Part shown: positions 1,723 through 11,340 of the stretch, piece by piece | Layout: the number at the start of each line of letters is the position of its first letter | Position numbering within the stretch: the stretch's first letter is position 1 | Source: Acidobacteriota bacterium | GTDB lineage: Bacteria > Acidobacteriota > Terriglobia > Bryobacterales > Bryobacteraceae | Reading direction: 5' to 3' | DNA: 43,120 nucleotides | Assembly (NCBI GenBank): GCA_026394075.1 | Contig: JAPKYX010000291.1 | Span: forward strand, 1 to 43,120 | Position numbers and translations under genes: made by a program | The notes under the pieces: generated by a model | What the model saw: the letters and a program-made list of their open reading frames with translations, nothing else | Database searches by the model: none | What the model was told of the DNA's origin: nothing

Positions 1723-4581
1723 ATGCCCGTCCCTGGTGAGCGGCTTGGCCCGTATGAACTGATCTCTCCGCTTGGTGCCGGTGGCATGGGCGAGGTGTGG
1801 CGCGCCCCCGATACACGCCTGAATCGCACGGCGGCCGCGAAGTCCGCCAAGGCCGCCTGCCAGCTCTACGACGTGGGCGACAACTTCCTGGTGATGGAGT
1901 TTATCGACGGCCAGCCCGCCCGCGGTCCACTGCCGCTGCGGAGCATGTTGCGCAGTGCGGCCCAAGCCGCGCGGGGCCTGGCCGCAGCCCATGCGGCGGG
2001 GATTGTGCATCGTGATTTGAAGCCGGACAATATTTTGATCACGCGGGATGGTTCGGCCAAGGTGCTCGATTTTGGCCTGGCGCGCATGGACCTGCAGATT
2101 GGCGCGGAAGATGTCACCCGCACCGTGCCCGGCATGCTGATGGGCACCATCGGCTACATGTCACCGGAGCAGGTGCGTGGCGAACGGGCCGATCATCGCA
2201 GCGATATCTTTGCCCTGGGCGTGGTGATGTTTGAATGGCTGACCGGCGAACGCCCGTTTGCCGGCAACACCGCCCCGGAATTGATGTCGGCCATTCTTCG
2301 TGACGACCCACGGCCGTTGCCCGAGGCGACGTCGCCCAACCTCAAGCAGATCCTGCTGCGGTGCCTGGAAAAAGAGCCGCGCCGCCGCTTCCAGTCGGCC
2401 GAGGATCTGGCCTTTGCGCTCGACAACTTCAGTGGTACCAGTTCGCCCGGCGCGGTTCATGAGGCCCCGGCCGCTTCGGGTTCTGGCCCGACGCCCGCCT
2501 CTGCCGGTTCCGCTTCCGGTGCCGCTGCCGCCGCGGTTGACCCGTCGAACGCCAGCACACCGCCGCAGGCAATGCCGCAAGCCCTGACGATTTCGGCTTT
2601 GCGCGGTTGGTTGGAATCACTGCCCGGCTGGCTGGGTTTGCAGACTGTGCCGGCTGGACGCCAAAGCCGCGGCGGTCTGGCGGTAGTGGTGGCTTTGATG
2701 TTGGGTTACGCCGGGCGCACGTACTTGGAGCCCCCGGCACTCGACACCTCGGCCTTGTCGCTCACACCCGTCTCAACGGACCGGCTGCCCCATGGCTTTC
2801 CCGCCTGGTCCAGCGATGGCCGCTCCTTTGTCTACTCGCGATTGCCCCGCCAGTTGCTGGTTCGGTCGCTCGAGAATGCCGACCCGGTGGAGTTGCTGCC
2901 GACCAATTTTGAGTACACCAGTCTGATGCCCGTCTGGGCACCGGACGGCACGCGGATCTACTTCACCGGTAGCCAGGACGGCACCAACCAACGTGCTCTT
3001 TTTTCGGTGAGCGCGGCCGGTGGTGCGCCCACGATGCTGATCAAGGATGTGGGCCGTTTGATGGGCCAGGATGGTCTCGCCGTTTCGCCCGACGGCAAGA
3101 CGCTGGTGATCGCCATGCCGGGCGAAGCACGCCAGAAACGGCTGATGCTCTCATCCCCGCCGGGCGCTCCGCCACAGCCTTGGCCTGGCGGTGGACTCGC
3201 GCTGGCGGCGGGTGGCTCCCGGATCCGGCTACAGTTTTCGAAAAGCGGCCACGAACTACTGGTGGTGGAAGGTTCACTCGACAACCCTCGCGGAACCCGC
3301 TTTGCGGTCCTACCGTGGCCGGCCCGGGCGGACGCGCCGCCGAAGTTTCTGTTTGAGGGGCCGCTGCCCGAGCGGTCGTCCAGCGCCGATGCTGACTGGT
3401 TGCCCGATGACCGGCATCTGCTGATGTCCTTCCCGGAACGGACGGTCGAAGCCGGGCGCCTGTGGATTGGGGACACGGTGACGGGCACGATTCTGGCGCT
3501 CACTGATCCAAGCTCCCGGTATCAGCGCGCCGTGGTTTCCCGCGATGGCCGGGCGCTTGTCAGCAATCTGGCTTCAGAGCAGGACATTGTCGAAATCTCT
3601 ACCGACGGCGGGCCAATGGAGGAGATCGTCGCCAGCCACTTTGCCGAACGCTATGGCCAGAACGTGCCCGGCACCACCGACTTTGTCTACGTCACTAACC
3701 GCTCCGGCAACTCAGAGATCTGGCTGGGCAACCGGATGGGGCGGCCCCATCGTCCGGTGGTGACTCCGCCCATGCTGCCTCAGGAAAAGTTTGAGGAGAT
3801 TTCGGTTCCGGTGGTGTCGCCGGATGGCAAAAGGATCGCCTACAACGTCTCCAACCGCCGGATCTACGTCTCGCCGGTAACGGGCGGAATTCCGGTTCCG
3901 TTGGGGGCCGCCGGACCACCACAGATCGCGGCCACTTGGGCCCCGGACGGCAAAACGATCGCTTACATATCACTGGAAGACGGCGGGGCCACGCTGCGCC
4001 GCACCACGATCGGCAGCTCTGATTCGACGGTGATCACAAAGCTCGGCATCATGAGCGTGACGCCGGTCTGGTCACCCGATGGCCGCTGGATCACGATCGA
4101 GAGGCGTGGCCAGTTTGGTGTCATCTCGCCCGACGGCAAGACCTTCCGCACCTTTGAGCGATCGCTGGGGTTATCCGCCGCCCTTTGCTGGTCTCGCGAC
4201 AGCGGCACCATCTATGCGGCCAGCTTTGAATCGGGTGAGGCGCTACTGCATGCCATCGATGCCGCCACCGGACGTTTCCGCCTGATCCGCAATTACGGCT
4301 CCCGCTACCGCCTCACTCCGCGTAGCCCGGGCCCCTCCAGCCTCAGTCTGTCGGGCGACGGTCAGCATCTGCTGGCCTCGCGTTCCGAAAGCTCAGTCGA
4401 AGTGTTTCTGCTGGAAGGCATCCGAGCGCCGTTGACGTTCCGTGACCGGCTCTGGCAACCGTTCGGACGGCGTGCGCCGTTCCCTGAACTGGACCGCCGC
4501 CGGCCAGCACCGGCGGATGGAGATGCCGACGCGGGTGGTCCAGGAGCAGGCGGTTCGCCTGGCCCGCCACCTCCGCGCTAA
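1723..4581 (+). CDS. Membrane Ser/Thr protein kinase with TolB-like repeats, lacking alpha-C region
   Basis: This 952-residue protein begins with a Hanks-type kinase domain (about 1-235). It has a glycine-rich loop GAGGMGEV (18-25), HRDLKPDN (D98) and DFG (116-118), and an APE-like segment reading YMSPEQ. A low-complexity Ala/Ser/Pro linker (about 240-290) leads to a short hydrophobic segment (about 318-331) that may cross the membrane. The C-terminal 600 residues hold PD40/TolB-like beta-propeller repeats (AWSSDG, VWAPDG, VSPDGK, TWAPDG, VWSPDG). This is a common Acidobacteriota sensor-kinase layout. The oddity is that from the putative beta-3 lysine (AAAK, K40) only about seven residues lead to the beta-4 segment CQLYDVG. 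Roughly 30 residues including helix alpha-C and its conserved glutamate are absent, in frame. Activity is therefore doubtful unless another residue compensates. A -10-like TACCAT (1709-1714) sits 8 nt before the ATG. Confidence 0.88.
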   Translation: MPVPGERLGPYELISPLGAGGMGEVWRAPDTRLNRTAAAKSAKAACQLYDVGDNFLVMEFIDGQPARGPLPLRSMLRSAAQAARGLAAAHAAGIVHRDLKPDNILITRDGSAKVLDFGLARMDLQIGAEDVTRTVPGMLMGTIGYMSPEQVRGERADHRSDIFALGVVMFEWLTGERPFAGNTAPELMSAILRDDPRPLPEATSPNLKQILLRCLEKEPRRRFQSAEDLAFALDNFSGTSSPGAVHEAPAASGSGPTPASAGSASGAAAAAVDPSNASTPPQAMPQALTISALRGWLESLPGWLGLQTVPAGRQSRGGLAVVVALMLGYAGRTYLEPPALDTSALSLTPVSTDRLPHGFPAWSSDGRSFVYSRLPRQLLVRSLENADPVELLPTNFEYTSLMPVWAPDGTRIYFTGSQDGTNQRALFSVSAAGGAPTMLIKDVGRLMGQDGLAVSPDGKTLVIAMPGEARQKRLMLSSPPGAPPQPWPGGGLALAAGGSRIRLQFSKSGHELLVVEGSLDNPRGTRFAVLPWPARADAPPKFLFEGPLPERSSSADADWLPDDRHLLMSFPERTVEAGRLWIGDTVTGTILALTDPSSRYQRAVVSRDGRALVSNLASEQDIVEISTDGGPMEEIVASHFAERYGQNVPGTTDFVYVTNRSGNSEIWLGNRMGRPHRPVVTPPMLPQEKFEEISVPVVSPDGKRIAYNVSNRRIYVSPVTGGIPVPLGAAGPPQIAATWAPDGKTIAYISLEDGGATLRRTTIGSSDSTVITKLGIMSVTPVWSPDGRWITIERRGQFGVISPDGKTFRTFERSLGLSAALCWSRDSGTIYAASFESGEALLHAIDAATGRFRLIRNYGSRYRLTPRSPGPSSLSLSGDGQHLLASRSESSVEVFLLEGIRAPLTFRDRLWQPFGRRAPFPELDRRRPAPADGDADAGGPGAGGSPGPPPPR

Positions 4582-4598
4582 CGGGGCAGCAAACGCAG

Positions 4599-4652
4599 CT
4601 CAGCCGCCCGGCCGGAAGAACAAGGGCGTTCTTGCCAGCGTGGGCGGCTGAG
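4599..4652. terminator. Nested inverted repeat between convergent genes
   Basis: A perfect 11-bp inverted repeat (4599-4609 with 4642-4652, arm CTCAGCCGCCC) encloses a second perfect 6-bp stem (4616-4621 with 4628-4633, arm AAGAAC). It lies between the kinase (ending 4581) and the anti-sigma gene (ending 4687 on the other strand), where a bidirectional terminator would be expected. No U-tract follows on either strand, so intrinsic termination is not certain. Confidence 0.5.
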
Positions 4653-4686
4653 GTACTTCAGCGATGAAACTTGCTGTGGCGGCGGC

Positions 4687-5307
4687 TTACCGGACCGTTA
4701 GGCCGGTTTCCCGCAACACTTCCCCGGACTTGGAGTACAGCCGGACCCAGTATTGGCCGGAGTTCAGCTGTCCTGTCGTAAATGTCGCTTGCGCGCCTTC
4801 GCGCCGGGCGGCTCCGCGCTGGATGACGTCACCGGAACTCTTTACCAGTTCCGCGTCACAGCAGTTGTCCAGCGGCAGGCCGGTCAGGTCGATGCGCAGT
4901 GTCAGCGGATGTCCGGCCGCTGCGGTGGAGCTTTCCACTCCGCGCAGTGCCGTCATCTCGACGGTTAAGGCAGCAGGCTGACGCAGCATGGGCGCCATCA
5001 CGGCCAAAGCCGCGGCCAGGGCTCCGGCAGTTACCCAGCGCGTGGCGTTAGGCAAGGCAAAGGTCTCCGTCACGGACCCCTTCACCCGATCCCACCAGCT
5101 GGGCATCGCGGCTTCTTCCTGCAATTCGCGGGCAGCTTGCCGGGCGGCCTGGGCAAACAGATCCAGTTCGTCCAATTGTTGTTGGCAGTGCGGGCACACC
5201 AGTAGGTGTTCTTCCAGGGCAGCGGTCGCGGTTTCGTCCAAGTGGCCTAGGCTGTAAAGTTCGAGCATATCGTCGCCTGGGTGAGGCGCCTCCGAAGTTG
5301 CTTTCAT
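4687..5307 (-). CDS. Zinc-motif transmembrane anti-sigma factor
   Basis: The likely start is ATG 5307, with GGAG nine nt upstream on the minus strand. ATG 5325 is an alternative with a weaker AGAGAA. The 206-residue product has an N-terminal ZAS-like zinc motif H34-x3-C38-x2-C41 (EEHLLVCPHC), typical of anti-sigma factors that hold ECF sigma factors. An amphipathic alpha-helix follows, then one membrane segment at about residues 91-108 (WVTAGALAAALAVMAPML). The C-terminal domain of about 95 residues would lie in the periplasm and reads as a small beta-sandwich. The gene is last in the CHAT-sigma-anti-sigma operon, separated from the sigma gene by about 200 nt. It probably binds the sigma factor encoded just upstream and may receive a periplasmic signal. 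Its zinc binding and partner are inferred from motif and position. Confidence 0.82.
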   Translation of the reverse strand: MKATSEAPHPGDDMLELYSLGHLDETATAALEEHLLVCPHCQQQLDELDLFAQAARQAARELQEEAAMPSWWDRVKGSVTETFALPNATRWVTAGALAAALAVMAPMLRQPAALTVEMTALRGVESSTAAAGHPLTLRIDLTGLPLDNCCDAELVKSSGDVIQRGAARREGAQATFTTGQLNSGQYWVRLYSKSGEVLRETGLTVR

Positions 5308-5511
5308 AGTGAGTGTCTCCGTCATCTTATATTTCTCTGATGTCCTACCCAACGCAGACAGGGCGTCCGCGCGATCATCTCCGCCGATTGAGCCACGGCG
5401 GTTGGGGTAGGCGGCCGCATTCCGGCCGTCCGGCGGGCGCTCCCGAGGGGGCGGAGCTCCGTCTCCACCCGTAACGGGGAAGTGACGGGAGCAAGAGCGC
5501 TCACTATTTGG

Positions 5512-6243
5512 TTAGTGTCTTGCACGGCCAGTAATTCTCTGAAAGAAAGATCCGGGACTGCCCCGCACCACCCGTCGCTTCCCTAACTCTCCGAACCGGG
5601 CCTTGGCGCGCGATTTCAGCAGCCGGAACTGGGTCTCGCTGAGCTGCATATCCTCGCAAATCTTTTCCTGGGTCTGTTCCAGCAGGTAAAAGCGCGTCAG
5701 AATCTCACGGTCGCGCGACGAGATGCTGGACAGCACCGTTTTCATGATGTCGACGGTCTCTCGCGCCATCGCCGTCTCTTCCGGGTTACGCTGGCCATCG
5801 ACCACCGCTGCGCCCGCATCCAGATCCACATAGTCCCGGCGGCTCTGCACCGCCGAACCAATGTAAGCTGCCACTTGACGGCGGACGACTGTGCGGACAA
5901 AGCCCATCAACCGTTCTGGCTCCCGCAACTCCTGCCGCTGGATTGCCTGCACCACGATCAGAAACGTATCGTGGACCTTGTCGTCCAACTCCTGGGTGCC
6001 CAACTGCCGGCACAGGTAGTACCTGATGCCCTTGGAGAAGATCTTGTACAGCTCCTCCAGCGCCGCATCCTCGTTGGCGCGGATCCGGTCCACCAGCACG
6101 GACCAGTTGGATGGCGCAGCCGTCGGCGTGAGGTTCTCTTCTGCTTCGTCTCCGGCCGGCGGGAGACCATTGGCCGAAGCCATCGCGTCGATCCCACTCG
6201 CCGTCTCCTCCACGCGCGCCGTCTGGGTGGCTGCTGCTTGCAT
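5512..6243 (-). CDS. ECF-type RNA polymerase sigma factor
   Basis: The 243-residue protein has an unusual N-terminal extension of about 45 residues. Region 2 follows (ALEELYKIFSKGIRYYLCRQ, then DDKVHDTFLIVVQAIQ) and region 4 is C-terminal (ISSRDREILTRFYLLEQTQE and the helix-turn-helix ICEDMQLSETQFRLLKSRAK). There is no region 1.1 or 3, as expected for an ECF/group IV sigma. Its ATG directly abuts the TAA of the CHAT gene (TAAATG), with AAAGGA six nt upstream inside that gene, so translation is probably coupled. Downstream lies a membrane anti-sigma gene. The operon therefore encodes a sensor candidate, a sigma and an anti-sigma. The regulon is unknown. The C-terminus after region 4 is basic and short. 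Confidence 0.88.
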   Translation of the reverse strand: MQAAATQTARVEETASGIDAMASANGLPPAGDEAEENLTPTAAPSNWSVLVDRIRANEDAALEELYKIFSKGIRYYLCRQLGTQELDDKVHDTFLIVVQAIQRQELREPERLMGFVRTVVRRQVAAYIGSAVQSRRDYVDLDAGAAVVDGQRNPEETAMARETVDIMKTVLSSISSRDREILTRFYLLEQTQEKICEDMQLSETQFRLLKSRAKARFGELGKRRVVRGSPGSFFQRITGRARH

Positions 6244-8631
6244 TTATGATCCTTTCGAAATCAGGAAGAAACCCGCCCAATGGCGCGGCGACCGCCGCCA
6301 GTCCGCCGCCTGGAGCATCTCAATTTGCGCCTGCCGCAACGCATCCGCGGCCGCCCGGGACCCGGCCTCACCCGCATGAGGCCCCGTTGCATAGTGCCGG
6401 TAAAAATTGGAAAAAAGCTCGCCGCGGTCGTCAGTGGTGGGCCACAGCGAGGCGGCAACGCCATGCGCCCCGGCCAGCAGCCAGGAACGGGTAAGCCCCA
6501 TCAGGCCGGCTCCGGGAATGGTTTGGCCCGCGCCGGAAGCGCAGCCACTCAACACCACCAGCTCCGGGGCCGCGGGAAAGGCGGAAATCTGCTCCGCGCC
6601 CAGCAATTCCGGTTGCCGCAGTGCGATCAAGGCCGTGGTGGGCGTGTCGGGAAGCGTGACAAAGTGGGTGGCAAAGTGGAGCACCGCCGGCCGCCGGGCC
6701 ACCATTTCCGTGACCGTGGCGCGGTTGGCCTGGCCGCCGGTTAGCGTCACCCGCTCCCCACCCCAGGACTTGGCGCACCGGTCGATCTCCGCTCCGGAGC
6801 CGATCAGGCGAGGTAGGGTGAAGCTGGGCTGGCCCGCCGGGGCGGTCCGATCCTGCCGCGGGTCCGCGGGGTTGTAGATCGGGTCACCGACCCCCACAAA
6901 CAGCGCGGACGATGCACCGGTGGAGGTAGTGGGGGTACTCAGGAATACGCTCGGTGCCAACCGTAGCGTATGCTTTTCAACTAGATACACCGAGTCCTCC
7001 GTGGCCGTTCCGGTTGTGCCCGGCACCCGCAGAGCGGCCAGGGGCAGCTCAAACAGGCGGTCGTCCAGCACCACCGTCCAATACCGTTTAGTGGCCACGT
7101 CGGGGGATATCTCTCCAAAAAAATGGGAGTAATCCATCGTCGAACCTTGATCTGTCAGTACTGTCTTGCGGAGGGCTTGCACCCGCCCGATCAGCTCTCG
7201 TTTCGAAGGCAGCCGGCGGAGGTAGAGCTGCTGCCGGGTGATATGCCAGACATAGGAGAATGGCTCGCCCAGATGGAAACTGAACATCGCTTCATCGGGT
7301 TGGAGTTGCTCCATCGACGCCTTCAAGGCCGTCATTGGAGCAATTCGGGGAAACTTGAGCGCGGCATCCAGGCCGGCTTTGGCTTCAAGATCCGCCAGTT
7401 CGATCTCCAGCCGTTGCGCGGTTTCCGCGGCCCCGGGGCGCTTGCTCAGGGCATCGGCTTGGGCACGTTGGAGTGCCGCCAACCGGTCCCAGTAGGCAGC
7501 CGGCAGGGGGACCTGCTGGCCGGGAGCGGCAATCGCCCGCAAGCTGGCGTGCCGACTCTCTTCGGCCACGGCAAGGGCTTCGAGCGCCATACCCCGGTCT
7601 GAGTTGTTCATGGAATCTTCGGCGGCGAACTGAATAAAGGCCGAACGGAGATCGTGCACCACCTTTTCCCAATTGGCCTGCATGGCTGAAACCGGCAGCA
7701 CGTCCACGCGCTCCCGCCGGATCAGTTCCAGGGCCACACGGTAGTCCTGTCGCGCGCCTTGGCGGTCACCTATGGCCAACCGCACGCGGGCCCGGTCACC
7801 GTGCACGCGATAGCGGGGGAAATTGCTGGGGTCGCTCCGTTGGCTCTGCACCGATTGGTCGAGCAGGGCCAATGCCTCTTGATTCCGCTTCTGCTCCAGG
7901 CGGAGCTTGCCCAGCTTGGCATAGCACTTGTACGCCTCACTGGGATCGAGCAAACGCCGGATCCGAAAAGCTTCAGAGAGGTAACGGTCGGCTTCGCTCA
8001 GCTGGCCATGGTCCAGGTACCAGTACCCCAGATGATCCAAGGCGGTGGCCATCTGTCGAGGGTCTTCCCATCGGTCCGCCTCTGCGGCCGCCTCCAGCAA
8101 CAGCGGAACAGCGCGCTCCATCCGGCCACTCAGGGTCAAGGAATCACCAAGAATCAACAAGATGAAGCGGCGAAAGCGGTTCGACCCAGGGGGAAGCGCG
8201 TGTAGGGCGGTTTCAGCAATCTCGACGGCCTTGGCGTGTTCGCCCATCATGGCGTACAACAATGCGAGGTTGGCATTGATCAGCGCGGTGGTCTCGTGGA
8301 GGGAGGCTTGTTCGGCAAAACGGCGGGCCTCCAAATAGGCACTCATCGCTCCCGAATAATCAAACACCTGTAGCCGAGCGCTGGCTAGGTTGTTCAGGTG
8401 GCGAATGGCCGTGCTGGTTTGGCCTTCTTGGCGGGCTTGCTGATAGCCCTGTTCAAAACTGCGAGCGGCCTCGCGGTATCGGGCCGTGGTGTAGTATTCC
8501 AGCGCTTGCTTGCCGATCGCCACCAAGCGTGGGCTATCGGCGATCGCCACCGGTTTGGCCAACCGCCGCGGGGCCTCGCCCACACCGGGTAGTGACAAAG
8601 CCAAAATCAGCCCGAAGGCGAAAAGACGCAC
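6244..8631 (-). CDS. Exported TPR-CHAT protease-like protein
   Basis: The GTG at 8631 is the first possible start after an in-frame TGA. The 795-residue product starts with a hydrophobic signal peptide (RLFAFGLILALSLPGVGEA). Tetratricopeptide repeats fill roughly residues 35-330, for example AIRHLNNLASARL and ALINANLALLYAMMGEHAKAVEIAETAL. A CHAT domain occupies about 500-795 and has the catalytic dyad of caspase-like proteases: His656 in LHFATH and Cys697 in LSGCASG. It ends with the family motif HWAGFFLIS. CHAT proteins (caspase HetF associated with TPRs) cleave protein partners in several bacterial signalling and defence systems. Export to the periplasm and operon position before a sigma/anti-sigma pair suggest a role in envelope signalling, which is inference. 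No protein target can be read from the sequence. Confidence 0.9.
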   Translation of the reverse strand: MRLFAFGLILALSLPGVGEAPRRLAKPVAIADSPRLVAIGKQALEYYTTARYREAARSFEQGYQQARQEGQTSTAIRHLNNLASARLQVFDYSGAMSAYLEARRFAEQASLHETTALINANLALLYAMMGEHAKAVEIAETALHALPPGSNRFRRFILLILGDSLTLSGRMERAVPLLLEAAAEADRWEDPRQMATALDHLGYWYLDHGQLSEADRYLSEAFRIRRLLDPSEAYKCYAKLGKLRLEQKRNQEALALLDQSVQSQRSDPSNFPRYRVHGDRARVRLAIGDRQGARQDYRVALELIRRERVDVLPVSAMQANWEKVVHDLRSAFIQFAAEDSMNNSDRGMALEALAVAEESRHASLRAIAAPGQQVPLPAAYWDRLAALQRAQADALSKRPGAAETAQRLEIELADLEAKAGLDAALKFPRIAPMTALKASMEQLQPDEAMFSFHLGEPFSYVWHITRQQLYLRRLPSKRELIGRVQALRKTVLTDQGSTMDYSHFFGEISPDVATKRYWTVVLDDRLFELPLAALRVPGTTGTATEDSVYLVEKHTLRLAPSVFLSTPTTSTGASSALFVGVGDPIYNPADPRQDRTAPAGQPSFTLPRLIGSGAEIDRCAKSWGGERVTLTGGQANRATVTEMVARRPAVLHFATHFVTLPDTPTTALIALRQPELLGAEQISAFPAAPELVVLSGCASGAGQTIPGAGLMGLTRSWLLAGAHGVAASLWPTTDDRGELFSNFYRHYATGPHAGEAGSRAAADALRQAQIEMLQAADWRRSPRHWAGFFLISKGS

Positions 8632-8677
8632 GGATCACACCCAAATTTCAAGTGATGGCCGCGAAATAGTCTGGCAG

Positions 8678-8713
8678 CCGTGCGGTACCACTAGTCCTAG
8701 TAGTACCGCACGG
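8678..8713. promoter_or_regulatory. 36-bp quasi-palindrome, candidate operator
   Basis: Two 17-bp arms (8678-8694 and 8697-8713, reading CCGTGCGGTAC then CACTAG or TACTAG) match with one mismatch and are separated by only two bases. On the minus strand the element begins just after the CHAT-operon -10 box, so it covers the predicted transcription start near 8708. A dimeric repressor site or a strong 5' RNA hairpin would both fit. No U-tract follows, which argues against a terminator. Confidence 0.6.
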
Positions 8714-8714
8714 T

Positions 8715-8722
8715 AGTATAGC
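8715..8722 (-). promoter_or_regulatory. Extended -10 promoter of the CHAT-sigma operon
   Basis: On the minus strand the bases read TGCTATACT (8723-8715), an extended -10 (TG-n-TATACT). No good -35 is present, which is tolerated with extended -10 boxes. The predicted start is near 8708, giving a leader of about 77 nt to the GTG at 8631. The leader begins with the quasi-palindrome. Confidence 0.5.
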
Positions 8723-8893
8723 ACAGCGAGTGTGCGGGGTAGTAGCCCAGTAGGGCGTCAAACTTAGTTTGAAGGGTAAAGCATGTAAAGCAGCGCCTCC
8801 TGAAATGGCGCTGAGTCTTCGCCCGTCATCGCTACAGTGATCGTTGCCGGAGCTTTTTCAGCTGGCAGCCATCCTTGCTCGGGGCGGCGAGAA

Positions 8894-9123: not shown

Positions 9124-11340
9124 ATGCGGCGATTTGGCCCGATTTTGGCGTTGATCATCGCAGGTTTAATCGGCGGTGTCGGCTATCTGTACTGGATGAC
9201 CCGGCAGCGCCAGGCCGATCACACGGCGGCCGCTCCCTCCCCGTTGGATCAATCGCTCAACTCGCAAGCCAAAGAGTGGGCCTGGTCACAGACGGTGGGC
9301 GGCAAGACGGTGGTTGAAGTGCGCGCCAAGGATTTCCGCCAGGTCAAGGATCCGCCGGTGATCGAGCTGAACGGCGTCGAACTCAAGATCTTCCATGGGG
9401 AAGAACAAAAGTTCGACCGCGTCTCCAGCGCCAAGGCGCACTTCTCCATCCCGGAAGGCAAGATGGTCTCCGAGGGCGAAGTGGACATCAAGCTGGGCGA
9501 GGTGCCTGAGGGGGCGCTCGCTGGCCGGCTGATGACCATCCACACCGCCGGCGTGACGTTTGAGAACAAGACCGGCCGCGCCGACACGGACCAGCACGCC
9601 ACGTTTGTGCTGGACGTGGGCGACGGTGAAGCCGATGGCGCCACCTATGATCCGCAGACACGCGAACTGCGCTTGAAAAGCAACGTCAAGCTAAACTGGC
9701 GCGGCAAGGACCCCAAGGCCTTGCCGATGCTGATCCAAGCCGGCGAATTGATCTACAAGGAAGCCGAGCATAAGGTCTGGTTGCTGGGCTGGTCCAAGTT
9801 CGCGCGCGACAAGCTGACCATGTCCGGCGGCCCCTCCATCATCACCATCGAAGAGGGCAATCTGCGCCTGGTGGAAACCGTGCAGGCCACCGGGGTGGAC
9901 AAGCACCCGGACCGGACGGTCGAGTTTGGGGCGGAGCAACTACAGATCATTCTGGGCGACGGAGCGCGCATGGAAAAAATCACCGGCCAGACCAACGCCC
10001 GGTTGACCAGCATCTCCAAGACCGGCCGCACCCAGGTCCGCAGCCAGCGCCTCGATCTCAGTTTTGTCGACGAGAAGGGGTCGAGCGTCCTCACCCAGGC
10101 TTTGGCCAGCGGGGCCAGCATCGCTGAGTCGTTCCCTTTGGTCGAACCCAAGCCCGAGAATCGCGTGCTGAAGTCCGATGTGATCGAACTCAAGATGAAG
10201 CCCGGCGGCCGTGAAGTGGCCACCATGGACACGCATGCCCCAGGCGTGCTGGACTTTCTGCCCAATCAGGTGACGCAACGGAAGCGCCACCTGGAAGCGG
10301 AGCGGATGAACATCCGTTACGGCGCCAACAATCAGATGGAGTACTTCCGCGCCGTGAAGGTGACCACCCGGACCGACCCCGCCGCCCAACGCCCCGGCAA
10401 GCCTCAAACCACCTCCAGCGAGAACATGGAAGCCGGCTTTGACGCCAAAGGCGACTTGGCGCGCCTGGAACAGTGGGGTAACTTCCGCTATCAGGAAGGC
10501 GACCGGCAGGCGATAGCGCAGCGGGCCGTGCTGGACCAGCCCAAAAATCTGATGACGCTCACCGGTGAGGCTCGCGTTTTCGATGCGGCCGGGGCCACTG
10601 ATGCCGAATCAATCGTCATCAACCAGACCAACGGCGACACCGTCGCCCAGGGCCGCGTGCGCACCGTGCGAGACCCTCACCGGGCCATTGCCGAACGCAT
10701 GGTCACCAGCGGCAACAACGCCAAGATCCGTTACCAGGGGAAGGCCACCGTCTGGCAGAACGACAATAAGCTCGACGCCGAAACCATCGATATCGACCGC
10801 GCCGCGGGCACTTTGGTGGCGGAAGAGCGCGTGGTCAGCATGTTGCAGGACAAGAGCAAAGTGGTCACCGTCATCCGCGCCGCCCACATGGACTATTCCG
10901 ACAAGCAAAAAGTGACCTACTATTCGGGCGACGTCTTCCTCACCCGGCCGCAGCTGACGGTGAAGTCCAAGAAGTTGCGCGCCTATCTGGTGGAGGAAGA
11001 CGCGGAACGCTCCGCCACGTTGCCCGATTCGGGTCTCGATCGGGCGTTCGCCGAAGGCAATGTCGAGATCGTGCAAACCAATGGTCCCCGCACCCGGCAG
11101 GGGTTCGGTGAGGCGGCGGATTATTACGTCACCGATGGCAAGGTTATCCTCGAAGGAGGAGCGCCGCAGTTGACCGAAACGCAGCCTGGAGTGAAACCCA
11201 ACGTGACCAAGGGCCGTCGTCTCACTTGGCTGGCCAATAGCGACAAGTTGACGGTGGAAGGTGCCGATGAAGCGCCCGGCTCCAGCACCTTGCGCCGCAA
11301 GAAGCCCCAGCCCGCGGCCACGGCGAATACCAAGAAATGA
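9124..11340 (+). CDS. LPS export periplasmic protein, LptC domain joined to LptA/OstA-like region
   Basis: The 738-residue protein starts with one membrane anchor (about 5-24, [19 protein letters not shown]), followed by an LptC-type periplasmic domain (for example [23 protein letters not shown]). A long series of beta-jellyroll-like OstA/LptA segments follows, for example [33 protein letters not shown], and [30 protein letters not shown] shortened here to its elements. LptC and LptA are normally separate proteins of about 190 and 180 residues that bridge the inner and outer membranes during lipopolysaccharide export. One long polypeptide could form much of that bridge. Its stop overlaps the lptB start (ATGA at 11337-11340), which supports a shared function. 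The fold assignment beyond the N-terminus is inferred from pattern and context. Confidence 0.8.

Follow-up and report, generated by a model that had tools for sequence, protein, structure and literature searches.

We identified a three-gene module in a 43,120-nt stretch of DNA from a bacterium of the family Bryobacteraceae (Acidobacteriota; assembly GCA_026394075.1, contig JAPKYX010000291.1, positions 1 to 43,120; hereafter, the window). On the minus strand, from position 8631 down to 4687, the window encodes, in this order, a tetratricopeptide repeat (TPR) protein with a caspase-like CHAT domain, an extracytoplasmic function (ECF) sigma factor and a membrane anti-sigma factor. This gene set had been pointed out in an earlier reading made from the nucleotide sequence alone (hereafter, the sequence-only reading), and it is present as described: the TAA of the CHAT gene directly abuts the ATG of the sigma gene at 6243, with a gap of 0 nt. 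The CHAT gene starts with GTG and, because a stop codon is located two codons before this GTG, there is no start further upstream. The stop of the sigma gene and the ATG of the anti-sigma gene at 5307 are 204 nt apart; the anti-sigma frame is open from a TTG at 5352, a GGAG precedes the ATG at 5307, and this ATG was used as the start. The flanking genes are on the opposite strand, a kinase gene at 1723-4581 (+) and an LptCA gene at 9124-11340 (+). The features of the module, with their basis in parentheses, are the following.

6244..8631, minus strand: TPR-CHAT gene, predicted exported product, 795 aa (open reading frame (ORF); Pfam CHAT, E 3e-41; orthologues; AlphaFold2 (AF2) model)
8572..8631, minus strand: probable signal peptide, residues 1-20 (sequence; hydrophobic N-terminus in relatives)
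7603..8532, minus strand: TPR helix array, residues 34-343 (Pfam TPR; AF2 helices)
6259..7077, minus strand: CHAT (caspase-like) domain, residues 519-791 (Pfam; fold matches to Csx29, DdvA and separase)
6664..6666, minus strand: His656 of the dyad (conserved in the orthologue alignment)
6541..6543, minus strand: Cys697 of the dyad (conserved in the orthologue alignment)
5512..6243, minus strand: ECF sigma factor, 243 aa (ORF; family model; family-wide matches)
4687..5307, minus strand: membrane anti-sigma factor, 206 aa (ORF; family models; AF2 model)
5185..5208, minus strand: zinc motif H34-x3-C38-x2-C41 (sequence; aligned relatives)
4984..5040, minus strand: predicted transmembrane helix, residues 90-108 (AF2; relatives)
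4690..4968, minus strand: predicted periplasmic Ig-like beta-sandwich, residues 114-206 (fold; co-loss with CHAT)
4942..4944, minus strand: Arg122, candidate P1 position, located in the loop that follows the first strand (conservation; inference)

The product of the first gene can be assigned to the CHAT peptidase family by its domain score (Pfam CHAT, PF12770, 142.2 bits against a cut-off of 24, residues 519-791) together with a His-Cys dyad. The dyad residues are those named in the sequence-only reading, His656 and Cys697: in the alignment, position 697 is Cys in 94/94 orthologue rows and position 656 is His in all 92 rows in which the column is filled, with a gap in two more, while the identity to the window protein falls to about 28%. 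The protein is predicted to be exported rather than cytoplasmic, in line with the sequence-only reading. Judged by hydrophobicity, a start codon followed by a hydrophobic N-terminus was found in 66 of the 80 orthologues that could be assessed (another 15 could not), whereas only 13 of 240 control blocks taken from the TPR region reach the hydrophobicity of the N-terminus.

The AF2 model of the TPR-CHAT protein (predicted local distance difference test (pLDDT) 85, predicted template modelling score (pTM) 0.85) comprises a helical array of TPRs and, after it, a caspase-like domain. The best solved match in Foldseek is Csx29 of Craspase (E 1.6e-14), with DdvA next (E 5e-13) and separase lower. 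In VIA, Csx29 was matched with a Z score of 24.0 and a root-mean-square deviation (rmsd) of 8.1 over 557 residues at 13% identity, a level (Z 25 to 23) that Csx29 has in common with TPR-only proteins such as LGN (Z 25.1); DdvA (8rw5) followed with Z 20.0 and an rmsd of 8.4 over 578 residues. At two related loci (L078, 7876-10335, and L086, 1988-4372), the CHAT frame is broken into two ORFs with the dyad part retained, which may be an assembly error or a real break.

The second gene product is assigned to the ECF sigma factors by the sigma70-ECF family model (NCBIfam TIGR02937, 51.6 bits against a cut-off of 42.9); the Pfam matches to sigma regions 2 and 4 remained under the cut-off. The third gene product fits the membrane type of zinc-binding anti-sigma (ZAS) factors by its zinc motif and transmembrane helix. 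This agrees with the sequence-only reading, which had described a zinc-motif membrane anti-sigma factor with a periplasmic tail. Among 57 aligned relatives, C41 is invariant and H34 and C38 are conserved at 90% or more, and the Pfam zf-HC2 score is 19.1 bits, under the cut-off of 22.2. The AF2 model (pLDDT 89) shows a helical zinc domain, a transmembrane helix and a compact beta-sandwich, and a transmembrane-like window lies between the zinc and periplasmic domains in 89/89 full-length relatives. The model of the periplasmic domain resembles a wide range of Ig-like folds (highest VIA Z 10.4), so that we predict an Ig-like domain and claim no specific family for it.

This architecture bears on the possibility that the zinc domain responds to redox changes or to a ligand and thereby frees the sigma factor, with CHAT only modulating a basal level. 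ZAS anti-sigma factors can respond to oxidation, according to the available part of PMC8999054, and the short anti-sigma factors described below presumably function without CHAT. However, a sensor that is purely cytoplasmic would have no need of the transmembrane-like helix kept in full-length members or of the conserved periplasmic domain, and we consider this possibility very improbable.

The conservation of the module was assessed at sigma loci. Within the same family, 58 of 61 genomes contain a match to the sigma factor with E 1.5e-53 or better, and the best match in the remaining three reaches only E 5e-12 to 1e-7; the close relatives, among the best 80 of 273, are mostly Bryobacteraceae, Bryobacterales or Acidobacteria. 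Two sets of 60 and 80 loci were pooled and deduplicated by sigma sequence, which left 108 distinct sigma loci, among them that of the window, and CHAT and anti-sigma genes were called with profiles built from the family. Conserved gene order had been set as a test beforehand, and it was found in 87/108 loci, with CHAT directly upstream of the sigma gene and a full anti-sigma gene (zinc and periplasmic domains) directly downstream. Eight other loci have a short anti-sigma gene and no CHAT, seven have CHAT and no nearby anti-sigma gene, one (L060) has a full anti-sigma gene and no CHAT, two (L091 and L155) lack both, and three (L037, L087 and L092) are truncated by contig ends. L091 (in G019) and L092 (in G020) are second copies of the sigma gene, and the first locus in these genomes has both CHAT and the anti-sigma gene. 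Altogether, a ZAS anti-sigma gene adjoins the sigma gene in 97/108 loci (the 87, the eight stubs, L060 and L087). Among the carriers of the module is Acidobacteriaceae bacterium KBS 96 (L149), the record of which does not derive from a metagenome bin.

By this comparison, CHAT, sigma and anti-sigma form one conserved module. We also considered whether it belongs to a larger conserved cluster and rejected this: the LptCA neighbour was matched in only 3 of 60 loci (L033, L034 and L076), so that a larger cluster does not account for the conservation of the module, and for the kinase neighbour no match of 60 bits or more was listed among the 60 loci, some of which are near a contig end where a neighbour may be missed. 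Chance neighbourhood of the three genes without any functional link was rejected as well, and we put its probability next to nil. The anti-sigma gene lies elsewhere in seven loci and CHAT elsewhere in one, as chance neighbours might; however, the relocated partner is still present in each of these eight genomes, and the order kept in 87/108 loci contradicts chance.

The genomes in which the module is rearranged or reduced link CHAT specifically to the periplasmic part of the anti-sigma factor. Among loci with an anti-sigma gene and a readable upstream side, CHAT and the periplasmic domain are both present in 87 and both absent in 8, the domain is present without CHAT in 1, and CHAT is present without the domain in 0. 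The eight anti-sigma stubs stop 59 to 107 residues past the start of the zinc-domain match; by eye, seven of them have no visible transmembrane helix, whereas that of L084 has retained one, and in the 450 nt after the eight stubs no remnant of the periplasmic domain was seen. The seven CHAT loci without an adjacent anti-sigma gene were dropped as counter-evidence, given that a whole-genome search found a full-length anti-sigma gene elsewhere in 7/7 of these genomes (G031, G006, G047, G046, G016, G049 and the genome that contains L107); no sigma gene was detected within 1.5 kb of the relocated anti-sigma gene in the first six of them. Likewise, the genome of L060 encodes an orthologous CHAT protein elsewhere (L195/L240; profile scores 397 and 319).

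Conversely, nine genomes (G036, G041, G022, G003, G009 and those of L108, L110, L145 and L155) contain neither an orthologous CHAT gene nor a full-length orthologous anti-sigma gene. All 17 of 17 rearranged genomes are thus concordant, with CHAT and the full-length anti-sigma factor both present (8) or both absent (9); left out of this count are the second copies L091 and L092 and the contig-end loci L037 and L087. The CHAT orthologues score from E 2e-137 (a two-piece match) to 5e-257, and the best matches in the CHAT-less genomes are at E 4e-81 or weaker; a paralogous CHAT in G016 reaches E 6e-111, and this genome has the orthologue too. Mapped onto the sigma tree, CHAT requires at least 10 changes and the periplasmic domain at least 7. 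As far as these genome comparisons go, CHAT and the periplasmic part of the anti-sigma factor are kept or lost together.

Co-variation of the domains points in the same direction. We calculated partial distance correlations for 73 loci with all domains (the permutations ignore shared ancestry, and only the contrast between domains is informative). With the sigma factor and the zinc domain held constant, the periplasmic domain correlates with the CHAT domain at 0.36 and with the TPR array at 0.43, whereas its correlation with the sigma factor, with CHAT and the zinc domain held constant, is -0.04. The zinc domain correlates with the sigma factor at 0.19 and with the CHAT domain at 0.12. This pattern fits a periplasmic domain that touches CHAT and not the sigma factor; the side of the zinc domain is less clear. 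Co-loss and co-variation together argue that the periplasmic part of the anti-sigma factor is very probably the route by which CHAT acts.

The same two results bear on the alternative in which CHAT is the output of the system, an executioner that would cut other envelope or foreign proteins, with the sigma and anti-sigma factors controlling its expression and the Ig-like domain sensing by other means. CHAT is the first gene of the module and follows a promoter-like region with an inverted repeat (see below), as would suit an output gene. In addition, some Acidobacteriota carry many CHAT genes (at least 32 scored in each of two genomes), and most CHAT loci sampled in other families have no detected sigma gene nearby, so that CHAT proteins need not all act on anti-sigma factors. 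However, CHAT and the periplasmic domain are jointly missing in all nine CHAT-less genomes examined, and it is CHAT, and not the sigma factor, that co-varies with the periplasmic domain, neither of which one would expect of an output gene. An executioner role therefore appears quite unlikely to us.

We consider the module as a whole to be best explained as an envelope-sensing sigma switch in which CHAT acts on the outer part of the anti-sigma factor, most likely by cleaving it; for this switch as a whole we give a rough probability of 0.6. This reading builds on gene order, the dyad, predicted export and topology, co-loss and co-variation, all of them obtained by sequence comparison; the binding of the sigma factor, the cut and its position, the proteolysis that follows and the signal itself are inferred. 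In the proposed switch, the zinc domain would hold the sigma factor at the inner membrane, and the exported TPR array would sense an envelope signal or a partner and activate the CHAT domain, which would act on the Ig-like domain and most likely cleave it. Proteolysis is probably the mode of action, since the dyad is invariant and a known TPR-CHAT protease cuts a sigma inhibitor. The site-1 cut would possibly fall after Arg122, a residue near the membrane, in the membrane-side loop; 94 of 95 domains have Arg at this position, and the next residue is Gly in 75 of 95. Many clan CD peptidases cleave after Arg or Lys, and for this reason Arg122 is a candidate cut site for CHAT. A general intramembrane protease and cytoplasmic proteases would then release the sigma factor.

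The predicted topology resembles that of the RseA/DegS/RseP and RsiW type, in which a single-pass anti-sigma factor with a periplasmic domain is cut stepwise, first in the periplasm by an exported site-1 protease, then within the membrane and in the cytoplasm; DegS itself is a membrane-anchored serine protease. The regulated proteolysis of RseA by DegS and RseP is summarised in the accessible part of PMC10028731. The single-pass anti-sigma factor predicted here fits this type, and the TPR-CHAT protein would be the exported candidate for the site-1 protease. In contrast to DegS, however, it is predicted to be an exported cysteine-dyad TPR-CHAT protein, and it is encoded beside the sigma factor.

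Craspase, to which the best structural match belongs, is a cytoplasmic system. Its TPR-CHAT protein Csx29, triggered by target RNA, cleaves Csx30, the inhibitor of CASP-sigma, so that the inhibition is relieved (PMC10028731, in the part available). Thus, in Craspase, a TPR-CHAT protease acts on the inhibitor of an ECF-like sigma factor (as far as that part of PMC10028731 describes it), the kind of action proposed here. Unlike RNA-activated Csx29 with its inhibitor Csx30, the CHAT protein here is predicted to be exported and the inhibitor is predicted to be a single-pass ZAS factor with an Ig-like domain. The window also differs from type III-E CASP loci, which contain Cas7-11 (gRAMP) and CRISPR genes: no Cas family was found by Pfam in the 17 window proteins scanned, which include the nearest genes on both sides.

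A second parallel is provided by the Protein Data Bank (PDB) entries 8rot and 8rw5, titled transmembrane anti-sigma factor DdvA, the chain of which is named CHAT domain-containing protein. By its name, we take this DdvA to be that of Myxococcus xanthus, the partner of the ECF sigma factor DdvS. Residues 344-991 of the chain match the TPR-CHAT model, and a sequence profile hit (E 6e-10) aligns the His and the Cys, both of which are kept. DdvS is active once DdvA is inactivated (PMC4374960, in the part available). However, in DdvA the anti-sigma part and the TPR-CHAT part form one chain of 991 residues, whereas here they are encoded by two ORFs, on either side of the sigma gene, and the anti-sigma factor has a predicted Ig-like domain of its own. 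No paper on the DdvA structure was found in our literature search.

DdvA also raises the possibility that CHAT is a non-cutting partner, in effect a split DdvA, whose signal-dependent binding to the Ig-like domain would stabilise or distort the anti-sigma factor. The joining of an anti-sigma factor and a TPR-CHAT part in 8rot and 8rw5, with residues 344-991 corresponding to the protein modelled here, favours such a partnership, and co-loss and co-variation suit binding equally with cutting. A pure scaffold, however, would need no catalytic dyad, and both dyad residues are invariant in the aligned rows, at identities as low as about 28%; DdvA keeps both residues too, hence it provides no argument against catalysis. 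We regard a non-cutting partner as unlikely, and cleavage of the Ig-like domain remains our preferred reading.

Two further groups of proteins are relevant for comparison. For ECF54 sigma factors, genes for CHAT, subtilase and carboxypeptidase proteins have been reported in the genomic context and proteolytic control has been proposed (PMC8999054, in the part available). The proposed proteolysis would hit the sigma factor itself, with no anti-sigma factor in the available part of the description (PMC8999054). Here, a ZAS anti-sigma gene adjoins the sigma gene, and by that description the two arrangements are set apart. The cyanobacterial protein HetF likewise combines CHAT with TPR, but it has one predicted transmembrane segment and a role in cell division and heterocysts, and a link to sigma factors is absent from the part of the text that was available.

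Given these precedents, the claim of the sequence-only reading that a CHAT-type trigger would be new was too strong: Craspase, DdvA and ECF54 precede it. What we consider new is the variant, a stand-alone exported TPR-CHAT protein coupled to a membrane anti-sigma factor of the ZAS/Ig type, and not the type of trigger. A literature search of partial coverage that combined the CHAT domain with sigma, anti-sigma or extracytoplasmic returned only the Craspase paper, and among the papers listed by broader searches none concerned the present module, judged by title and abstract. Bacteria have numerous caspase-like CHAT proteins, for few of which the substrate is known. The module offers a candidate substrate in the Ig-like domain, a cut that may fall after Arg122, and sigma activity as a read-out, and therefore the proposed protease-substrate pair is directly testable. 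If the reading is correct, envelope sigma signalling would gain a cysteine-dyad trigger alongside DegS-type proteases, and there would be a non-CRISPR setting for how the TPR-CHAT protein of Craspase came to control a sigma factor.

Several points count against the proposed switch or limit its support. The signalling chain of the sequence-only reading gains a link from CHAT through the periplasmic domain to the sigma factor by co-loss and co-variation, whereas its cleavage step is putative, and a conserved dyad is no proof that the anti-sigma factor is the substrate. Regarding the cut site, Arg189 (94/95) and Glu200 (95/95) equal Arg122 in conservation, so that Arg122, like these two residues, may be structural. 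Export fails the hydrophobicity rule in 14 of the 80 assessable CHAT orthologues, 10 of them solely from the lack of an ATG, GTG or TTG in range. In the co-variation analysis, the zinc domain correlates more strongly with the TPR array (0.26) than with the sigma factor (0.19), which the proposed switch does not predict. With respect to co-loss, most of the genomes are metagenome bins, many of them incomplete, and orthologous and paralogous CHAT proteins were separated by score, not by a tree. Two of the nine double-absent genomes, G492 and G496 (those of L108 and L155), contain full-length anti-sigma genes that are matched weakly (at E 2e-18 and 7e-18, respectively); these were counted as paralogues because they adjoin paralogous CHAT genes. 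Finally, the sigma tree contains just two independent contrasts on well-supported branches, none of them opposed, a number with which the sign test cannot reach significance (p 0.5), and 7-8 contrasts over all its branches, for which the direction was not given.

Upstream of the module, the following feature was identified.

8678..8713, minus strand: inverted repeat of 17 nt, immediately after a TATACT box and upstream of the CHAT gene (sequence; relatives)

In many relatives, an inverted repeat is located directly after a -10-like TATACT or TATGAT box; the arms have other sequences, complementarity is retained and the spacer is variable. At least 10 pairs are formed in 58 of 84 upstream regions, compared with 2 of 84 shuffled ones. 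Rfam gave no match in the window, and with up to 3 mismatches allowed the core of the repeat occurs nowhere else in the genome, whereas the backward control has 3 places. An operator was our first view of this repeat and was dropped as a settled reading, the arms being different among relatives. The sequences indicate that the repeat may be either a DNA site (operator) or a 5' RNA hairpin.

Other arrangements of CHAT and sigma genes were observed as well. Apart from the module, a single CHAT gene was found in the genome of the window (L246, G000:C80:6000-19575, at 4184-8748); it is convergent to another pair of ECF sigma and anti-sigma genes, with one unidentified gene between. Six genomes (L233-L238) contain a second, paralogous order, in which a sigma gene is followed by an anti-sigma gene, a gene for an unknown protein of 240-280 aa and a CHAT gene. 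No gene was called at the place of the unknown protein in L236, and that of L237 has no Pfam match; the CHAT proteins have lipoprotein-like N-termini, which are plain in L233, L234, L237 and L238 but less evident in L235 and L236. Yet another order is found at L239 (G006:C32, 3460-8026), where a sigma gene, an anti-sigma gene with a TPR tail and a gene for a CHAT protein of 1064 aa follow one another; judged from its sequence, this locus looks halfway to a fusion of the DdvA type.

In other families of Acidobacteriota, an ECF sigma match was found within about 6 kb in 14 of 50 sampled CHAT loci. The sample comprised one or two first-listed CHAT genes per genome, among the matches listed, and one CHAT gene at a contig end was passed over. 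After removal of L303 (hand-picked for its known sigma factor), L295 and L296 (whose sigma factors were used for training the sigma model) and the probably spurious hit of L288, which lies across the CHAT frame on the opposite strand, the corrected figure is 10/47. The background amounts to 1 hit in 502 kb of Bryobacteraceae flanks, against which 13/49 gives a rough p of 9e-12. A sigma neighbour of CHAT in the other Acidobacteriota families is thus frequent and not universal.

Exported TPR-CHAT proteins might, as a general class, serve as site-1 proteases of membrane anti-sigma factors. Such a class would have been assembled several times in Acidobacteriota (CHAT-sigma-anti-sigma, sigma-anti-sigma-X-CHAT with a lipoprotein CHAT, and sigma-anti-sigma-CHAT) and fused in Myxococcus (DdvA), with Craspase as the cytoplasmic branch of the same old partnership. 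We put this forward tentatively and hold it to be doubtful.

Two genomes of Acidobacteriota, G149 and G161, each have at least 32 scored CHAT hits of 66 candidates, some of them in tandem. Beside the module, in the PknB-like kinase with a PD40 propeller encoded at 1723-4581 (+), the Pfam Pkinase match begins at profile position 91/263. By its sequence, this kinase seems to be without part of the N-lobe, which may reflect a deletion or a pseudo-kinase.

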